From Candidatus Poribacteria bacterium (lineage in GTDB: Bacteria > Poribacteria > WGA-4E > WGA-3G), in NCBI GenBank assembly GCA_026702755.1, contig JAPPBX010000058.1, positions 1 to 64,000 of the forward strand: a stretch of 64,000 nt of DNA, written 5' to 3'. The notes beneath the pieces were generated by a model. It saw only the letters and a program-made list of their open reading frames with translations, searched no databases and had not been told where the DNA came from. Of this stretch, positions 46,556 through 47,528 are shown piece after piece (the first letter of the stretch is position 1; every line of letters begins with the position of its first letter). Made by a program: the position numbers and the translations under genes.

Positions 46556-47092
46556 TTATCCACCGTTCTTTATCAACCGCGCAACAATTTCCTCAACGGC
46601 ACCTTCCGCGCGTTCCCGAATCTGCTCCGGTGTCAGACTCTGGATTGGATGCGGGACGGTGAGCGGTTCCAAATCGCTGTGTCCGAGGACACGTGCTTGG
46701 ACTTTCCCCGCAGCGAAGAAGACTTCCGTACAAACCGCGACGCTTGGCACACCGCGTTCCTCTAAAGCACTCCCGTCGTGCATACTGCACGATATGCAGG
46801 AGCCTCAGTCGGCGAGCCCTTCAATGACAAAGTCTGCTTCTTCCGCGAGTTCAACGAGCAGCTCTGTTGGTGCGGGACGCGAGAACGTCGGTTTCTTGAC
46901 GTGAACCACTTCGGCAAGGTCGAACCGTTCCTGCATCAATTCAGCAATACGGTCGAGAAAAATATCACTGCCATTCTTTGTGATGTTCAGTAAACCCATC
47001 ACTTTCCCATCAAGGCTATCGAGTCGCGGTGCGAGAAATTTTGCGGACACATCGCCTTGAGAGGTGGGATCGAGTAAGGTAGTATTTGGCAT
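46556..47092 (-). CDS. UGSC-family selenoprotein with in-frame TGA (Sec96)
   Basis: Read through the TGA at 46807-46805, the frame encodes 178 residues. It starts MPNTTLLDPTS at 47092; Sec96 lies in GLAD-U-GSCISC, after which the same frame continues with MHDGSALEERGVPSVAVCTE to the stop at 46556. The U-G-S-C motif matches the UGSC family known among bacterial selenoproteins; its biochemical role is unknown, but a U/C-x-x-C motif suggests thiol or peroxide redox chemistry. A stem-loop follows at bSECIS distance. Conventional callers would split this into two ORFs. TAGAGG precedes the ATG. Confidence 0.88.
46770..46802 (-). promoter_or_regulatory. Candidate bSECIS element
   Basis: On the minus strand TCGTGCA (46792-46786) and TGCACGA (46782-46776) form a perfect 7-bp stem with loop GTA. 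Outside it CTCC (46802-46799) pairs with GGAG (46773-46770). The loop is 19 nt past the UGA and starts with G, both in line with the bacterial SECIS consensus. Confidence 0.75.
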
Positions 47093-47105: not shown

Positions 47106-47182
47106 ATATTCTTTCGCTGGCGAGGTTTGCAACCTCGCCGATTTCCAATATTCTTTCGCTGGCGAGGTTTGCAACCTCGCCA
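47106..47182. repeat. 42-bp tandem repeat with two palindromes
   Basis: A 42-bp unit starts at 47106 and again at 47148. Each contains GGCGAGGTT-TGC-AACCTCGCC, a perfect 9-bp-stem hairpin. It lies between the TPR gene and the selenoprotein gene. Confidence 0.8.
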
Positions 47183-47195
47183 ATCCTTCAAGTCA

Positions 47196-47528
47196 TTATG
47201 TAGATGAATCGGATGCCTCCATCTGCAACTGCTGCGACTTTGCCATCGCATCCTCTGCTTCTTGGATCATCCCTTTTCTTTGGTAACACATGGATAAACT
47301 GGTATATACAAGCGGATCCTTTGGGTTGATTTCTATCGCTTTCTGGATAGCCTCAATGGCTTCATCGTATAGACTCATCCGTTCATAAGCATGTCCTAAC
47401 CCAAGGAATCCTTCGATGTAGTCAGGGTAGGTGTCAATCAATACTTTAAAGGCATTAACAGCCGCTTCGAGATCGTTTTCAGCGAAATGCGTGAGTGCGG
47501 CATCGTAAAGTTCCGTTTCGGTTGGCAT
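47196..47528 (-). CDS. Tetratricopeptide-repeat protein
   Basis: The 110-residue protein consists of about three TPR units: AALTHFAENDLEAAVNAFKV, then GLGHAYERMSLYDEAIEAIQ with KAIEINPKDP, then SLSMCYQRKGMIQEAEDAM. Such small TPR proteins mediate protein contacts. It is directly upstream of the selenoprotein gene on the same strand, separated by the hairpin repeats. AAAGGA precedes the ATG. Confidence 0.88.
   Translation of the reverse strand: MPTETELYDAALTHFAENDLEAAVNAFKVLIDTYPDYIEGFLGLGHAYERMSLYDEAIEAIQKAIEINPKDPLVYTSLSMCYQRKGMIQEAEDAMAKSQQLQMEASDSST

Follow-up and report, generated by a model that had tools for sequence, protein, structure and literature searches.

The window, a 64,000-nucleotide stretch of a contig from a Candidatus Poribacteria bacterium, harbours on its minus strand a 178-codon gene of the UGSC selenoprotein family (46556..47092). 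The bacterium is sponge-associated, and a protein search found its close relatives under the name Candidatus Poribacteria. The frame, running from 47092 to 46556, is interrupted by a single TGA at codon 96 (46805..46807, minus strand), and no coding frame was found on the plus strand over the same interval. Without recoding, the frame splits into two unrelated entries of the open reading frame list; with TGA translated as selenocysteine (Sec, U), a continuous protein of 178 residues is obtained that carries ADUGSCISCS around the Sec, which confirms the first-pass annotation that both halves share one frame and that the junction reads U-G-S-C-I-S-C. This protein passed the cut-offs of both NF041046 (UGSC family (seleno)protein; 158.2 bits versus 125) and PF24696 (UGSC; 173.8 bits versus 25, E = 4.5e-51), and only one UGSC copy was found in the source genome. 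Judged from its sequence, the gene is a genuine UGSC-family selenoprotein, a new member of a family already published.

Directly upstream of UGSC, 103 bp away and on the same strand, lies a gene for a TPR-repeat protein (47196..47528), the repeats of which were recognized by eye. Related ORFs were found in 14 poribacterial UGSC loci, making it a conserved neighbour within the family of the source genome. The stretch that separates the start of UGSC from the TPR gene contains two copies (47113-47139 and 47155-47181) of a 27-bp palindromic repeat, TTCGCTGGCGAGGTTTGCAACCTCGCC, which is present in 35 copies genome-wide at up to two mismatches (reversed control, 0) and looks like an interspersed hairpin element.

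Downstream of the UGA is a bacterial SECIS-type hairpin (46776..46792, minus strand) with a stem of 5-7 bp and a loop with a conserved GU; in the window, the stem is UCGUGCA/UGCACGA and the loop GUA. The 46-nt region folds at −19.5 kcal mol−1 (z = −3.2; 1 of 200 shuffles as good), and the hairpin pattern was found in none of 100 shuffled windows. Across 57 poribacterial sequences, synonymous entropy at codons +5 to +9 (TCG TGC AGT ATG CAC) is 0 to 0.13 of the maximum, with most flanking codons at 0.5 to 1.0, and a similar drop at the hairpin was observed in other phyla. In 25 diverse sequences, pairing holds in 95% of stem cells; one change is two-sided and compensatory, three are G-U changes, and RNAalifold retains the five central stem pairs. 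A hairpin under RNA-level constraint thus directly follows the UGA. At gathering thresholds, Rfam reports no SECIS in the window. Of the earlier description, which placed a 7-bp stem with a G-starting loop 19 nt past the UGA, the stem and loop stand, yet the count of 19 nt reaches the loop G; the stem begins at 12 nt. The outer CTCC/GGAG pairing also described there occurs in the window, but relatives do not conserve it: among 25 of them, one of its four pairs forms in 2 and two others form in 11. The full outer helix has 63% of its cells paired, does no better than shuffles and was rejected as a conserved SECIS part.

The source genome encodes the machinery for Sec decoding. A tRNA-Sec (78 bits; anticodon UCA, ARAGORN) is located just after selB, selA is on a different contig, and selD (G000:C96:159939-160862) has one in-frame TGA in its own frame, so the selenophosphate synthetase SelD is probably itself a selenoprotein. 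With selA, selB, selC (tRNA-Sec) and selD all located, the earlier proposal that this organism decodes selenocysteine is supported.

UGSC was found in 63 of the 85 genomes of the phylum. Each poribacterial match that spans the Sec site contains exactly one TGA, and none has Cys there; the remaining matches are fragments at the ends of contigs or on contigs that are split. All 57 distinct poribacterial sequences keep the TGA, as do all 27 from Acidobacteriota, Rokubacteria, Binatota and Pseudomonadota. The window alone shows just one in-frame stop, which might be taken for a nonsense mutation, that is, a pseudogene or a sequencing error; given that TGA is retained in every complete homologue of this and other phyla, that the adjoining hairpin has almost no synonymous changes and that the full Sec machinery is in the genome, this reading is refuted and its probability negligible. 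Equally remote, and also refuted, is an alternative code by which the organism would read UGA as an ordinary amino acid, for which no support was found: tRNA-Sec with a UCA anticodon and SelB are present, the single conserved UGA occupies an active-site position taken by Cys in other lineages, and a PrdB-like gene of the phylum likewise has a single UGA, at the position where the PrdB family is known to carry Sec. Decoding of UGA 96 by SelB and tRNA-Sec, with the hairpin just downstream as the predicted aid, is strongly supported.

Cys forms of UGSC were found on plasmids of haloarchaea (Natrinema, Halorientalis), Arthrobacter and Roseovarius, and Sec forms on plasmids of Acidovorax and Paracoccus. 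In an alignment of 38 members, U/C96 and C99 are invariant, and a third Cys, C102, is nearly so, being missing in some plasmid-borne forms. Sec or Cys at residue 96, the alignment check suggested in the first pass, was held in all redox-type homologues seen; with the site conserved and the Sec genes in place, neither a lack of selB and selC nor homologues without Sec or Cys, the two findings named there as contrary to a selenoprotein, bear against it. UGSC-like domains of Sporomusa termitida (L250) and Vibrio europaeus (L251) carry DMGTSS and DMGTSV, respectively, in place of U/C-G-S-C; these members without Sec and Cys indicate that a non-redox role is possible for the UGSC domain. Both are located near genes for aconitase X and DUF126 and are fused to a second protein, here termed U1. 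In one genome of the same class (L070:534-2222), the UGSC domain reads HUSTCAP and is also fused to U1; tRNA-Sec was not found in that genome, which is 79% complete.

U1 is an unnamed protein of 320-360 residues. Of 27 loci in other phyla, 26 have its gene ending immediately ahead of UGSC, and in 12 of 12 plasmid loci it is directly up- or downstream of UGSC or fused behind the UGSC domain. In Poribacteria it is mostly unlinked to UGSC, the copy in the source genome being at G000:C90:89649-90458. Over the 85 poribacterial genomes, 61 have both genes, 20 have neither, 2 have UGSC only and 2 have U1 only; with kinship ignored throughout, this co-occurrence has a Fisher p of 3.6e-15, as against 1.6e-5 in the window's own family and 6e-13 among tRNA-Sec genomes, and that of UGSC with tRNA-Sec is not significant (p = 0.31). 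Some of the single absences of UGSC or U1 would fit genome incompleteness. Supported by adjacency, fusion and co-occurrence, UGSC most likely works together with U1.

Several plasmid loci bear on the arrangement of the pair. On two haloarchaeal plasmids (L206 and L253), a Cys-form UGSC lies between U1-type genes on both sides, which suggests two U1 paralogues per UGSC. On the conjugative IncP plasmid p2-T1 of Acidovorax sp. T1 (L204), a Sec-type UGSC is fused to U1 and, because of the TGA, is annotated merely as a short hypothetical protein. On the Paracoccus plasmids pTAV4 and pFER4 (L207 and L257), a Sec-type UGSC and U1 share the plasmid with selB, at a distance of ~3 kb in pFER4; UGSC, U1 and selB may here constitute a mobile Sec-decoding module.

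No Pfam or NCBIfam family matched U1, nor did any PDB sequence, and in these comparisons U1 was not detectably a pyruvoyl proprotein of the PrdA/GrdE type. Its structure model is of middling confidence (pLDDT 76) and has no good structural match; a match to class I fumarase (E = 0.004, TM < 0.3) was not accepted. In Poribacteria, U1 is followed in 11 of 18 loci by CBS-domain proteins and by genes resembling subunits of 2-oxoacid oxidoreductases; they were not taken as parts of the system, since they are absent after U1 in the other loci.

Links to thioredoxin were observed both within U1 and around the pair. An N-terminal thioredoxin-type domain with CxxC is carried by U1 in five loci, namely L069 (Poribacteria), L177 and L182 (Acidobacteriota) and L198 and L201 (Pseudomonadota); the domain of L177 is matched by Pfam Thioredoxin_2 (E = 8e-6, just under the curated cut-off), and the other four were recognized by the CxxC-bearing sequence they share with it. 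The gene order is trxB-trxA-U1-UGSC in Arthrobacter and U1-UGSC-trxB in Roseovarius, and in Variovorax SRS16 trxB is three genes ahead of U1-UGSC. The TrxB proteins of these three score above the TIGR01292 equivalog cut-off; near the pair in Haloterrigena and Variovorax boronicumulans, TrxB-like proteins were found that fall short of it. In Poribacteria, no thioredoxin gene was seen beside UGSC or U1. Other neighbours in other taxa include TRAP and tricarboxylate-type transporters, CoA transferases, a CoA ester lyase, SDR and aldehyde dehydrogenases, and LysR or IclR regulators. These transporters and catabolic enzymes suggest that an organic acid, or a small molecule related to one, is catabolized.

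The UGSC protein itself shows remote similarity to the B proteins of glycine and D-proline reductases. TIGR01917 (GrdB) weakly matched residues 82-152 of the window protein, Sec included (E = 0.0087; 15 bits versus a curated cut-off of 602), and, when scanned singly, 24 of 38 UGSC proteins (best E = 8.5e-4); GrdF, GrdH, TIGR01918 and PrdB were matched more weakly. Profile-profile comparison by hhalign, with diverse UGSC sequences against PrdB/GrdB from Clostridia, Lactobacillales and Proteobacteria, gave a probability of 92-93% (P = 3e-7 to 6e-7) over 68-74 columns, with Sec aligned on Sec, whereas controls (reversed, unrelated and 100 column-shuffled profiles) reached at most 1.4%. The same outcome was obtained when plasmid-derived and genome-derived UGSC halves were run separately. 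An earlier comparison using narrow alignments was weak, and none was detected against the poribacterial PrdB-like alignment taken by itself; the signal emerged only with diverse sequences and clostridial PrdB/GrdB. At the site itself, the GrdB of Photobacterium has U-G-T-C-T-R-C where UGSC has U-G-S-C-I/T-S/T-C. Together these comparisons support UGSC as a minimal remote relative of the GrdB/PrdB Sec domain, in which U96-x-x-C99 is the predicted redox pair at the helix start; as all Grd/Prd cut-offs were missed, it is a relative rather than a member. The source genome has a second Sec gene, which encodes a PrdB-like protein (G000:C98:1862 onward; motif FLTPVUPMC) with ~160 residues before the Sec and 85-90 after it; it was found in 30 loci of the phylum (L094-L123) and scores below the TIGR04483 cut-off.

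PMC2398784 calls the UGSC protein likely Trx-like, and PMC13188914 lists it among selenoproteins with a Trx-like fold. The corresponding reading, that UGSC acts alone as a general antioxidant or thiol-disulphide oxidoreductase with a thioredoxin-like fold, agrees with the UxxC motif and with the lack of a UGSC-U1 operon in Poribacteria. Yet the AlphaFold model (38 sequences; pLDDT 92) has five strands in the order E-H-E-H-E-H-E-H-E-H, with Sec right after strand 88-94 and ahead of helix 97-112. A thioredoxin fold is not supported by this alternating parallel alpha/beta arrangement, and the best PDB matches by Foldseek are flavodoxin- or Rossmann-like domains (TM about 0.4-0.5). By sequence and profile, searches of PDB with UGSC, U1 and PrdB returned chance matches only, and no PrdB relatives were found there by sequence. 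Since, moreover, the profile homology leads to Grd/PrdB, the tie to U1 is close and relatives have separate thioredoxin genes near the pair, a lone thioredoxin-like oxidoreductase is considered rather unlikely.

The overall explanation that we favour, and hold to be fairly probable, is that UGSC and U1 form a thioredoxin-coupled enzyme related to Grd/PrdB, with Sec decoded at UGA 96. More specifically and more tentatively, with a chance we would put a little short of even, the two may be subunits of an unrecognized class of thioredoxin-coupled reductases acting on a small organic substrate, in which a trimmed Grd/PrdB Sec domain is combined with a new subunit that binds the substrate and replaces the pyruvoyl proprotein, and which would be distributed among diverse bacteria (Sec or Cys) and haloarchaea (Cys), partly on plasmids. 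Starting from the Sec gene, the hairpin constraint, the remote homology and the linkage, we infer complex formation, chemistry, electron donor and substrate. By analogy, U1 would bind the small substrate, which the gene neighbourhoods point to as an organic acid or related small molecule, and the selenolate of U96 would attack it, resulting in reductive cleavage or reduction. The ensuing selenenylsulphide between U96 and C99, the putative resolving Cys, would be reduced by thioredoxin, which in turn would be re-reduced by NADPH and thioredoxin reductase. For D-proline reductase, the proposed mechanism has the Sec of PrdB attack proline at its alpha-carbon while the substrate is bound to the pyruvoyl group of PrdA; the selenide-sulphide left behind has to be reduced. 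In glycine reductase, NADPH supplies the electrons, which arrive by way of thioredoxin reductase and thioredoxin (PMC3091704). As no relation of U1 to PrdA/GrdE was found, substrate activation may differ from that by PrdA/GrdE. Several findings weigh against the favoured explanation: most Poribacteria keep the two genes apart and show no thioredoxin gene next to them, U1 has no recognized relatives and a model of middling confidence, UGSC shows no similarity signal with the poribacterial PrdB-like proteins by themselves, and the Sporomusa and Vibrio members have lost Sec and Cys.

The functional coupling of UGSC and U1 is known here from genomes alone, so the complex could be something other than a catabolic reductase, for example a redox sensor, a carrier or an assembly factor. 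The Sporomusa and Vibrio members without Sec or Cys would accord with such a role, as would the poribacterial U1, which is without a C-terminal segment of about 35 residues. Against it, U1 resembles enzymes in its large number of invariant polar residues, and the neighbours elsewhere are small-molecule transporters and catabolic enzymes with their own regulators; we regard a complex of this kind as unlikely.

A thioredoxin-coupled enzyme of UGSC and U1 would, through the link to Grd/Prd chemistry and a named partner, make a testable enzyme of two components out of an orphan selenoprotein, and model organisms with the Cys form (haloarchaea, Arthrobacter and Roseovarius) could be used for knock-outs. 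In the passages on UGSC of the open-licence literature, no statement of the U1 partnership, the Grd/PrdB kinship or a non-Trx fold was found beyond the fusion in PMC2398784; the partner, the kinship and the corrected fold might be new to specialists.

Compared with its own family (NF041046/PF24696; the UGSC-containing protein of PMC2398784), the window protein differs in nothing essential: it shares the UGSC motif and has the Sec form with a hairpin, Cys forms occurring elsewhere, and its stand-alone position away from U1 is typical of Poribacteria. The same source reports a UGSC/Unknown_1 fusion, and U1 is probably that 'Unknown_1' fusion domain; in the present analysis, U1 was traced across phyla as a separate gene, as a fusion and as an unlinked co-occurring gene. 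With the thioredoxin-fold selenoproteins (Trx-like, Prx-like) UGSC has the UxxC redox motif in common, but its fold in the model differs. Like GrdB, GrdF/GrdH and PrdB (TIGR01917, TIGR01918 and TIGR04483), UGSC has UxxC, the following helix, a G-I-P-T-V strand and an H-P motif, and, as in the Grd systems, its relatives are linked to thioredoxin genes. Unlike GrdB/PrdB, it is only 178 residues long and is without most of their N-terminal part; its partner U1 is, as far as tested, unrelated to PrdA/GrdE; and it extends beyond the classical anaerobes of the Grd/Prd systems to haloarchaea and other taxa.
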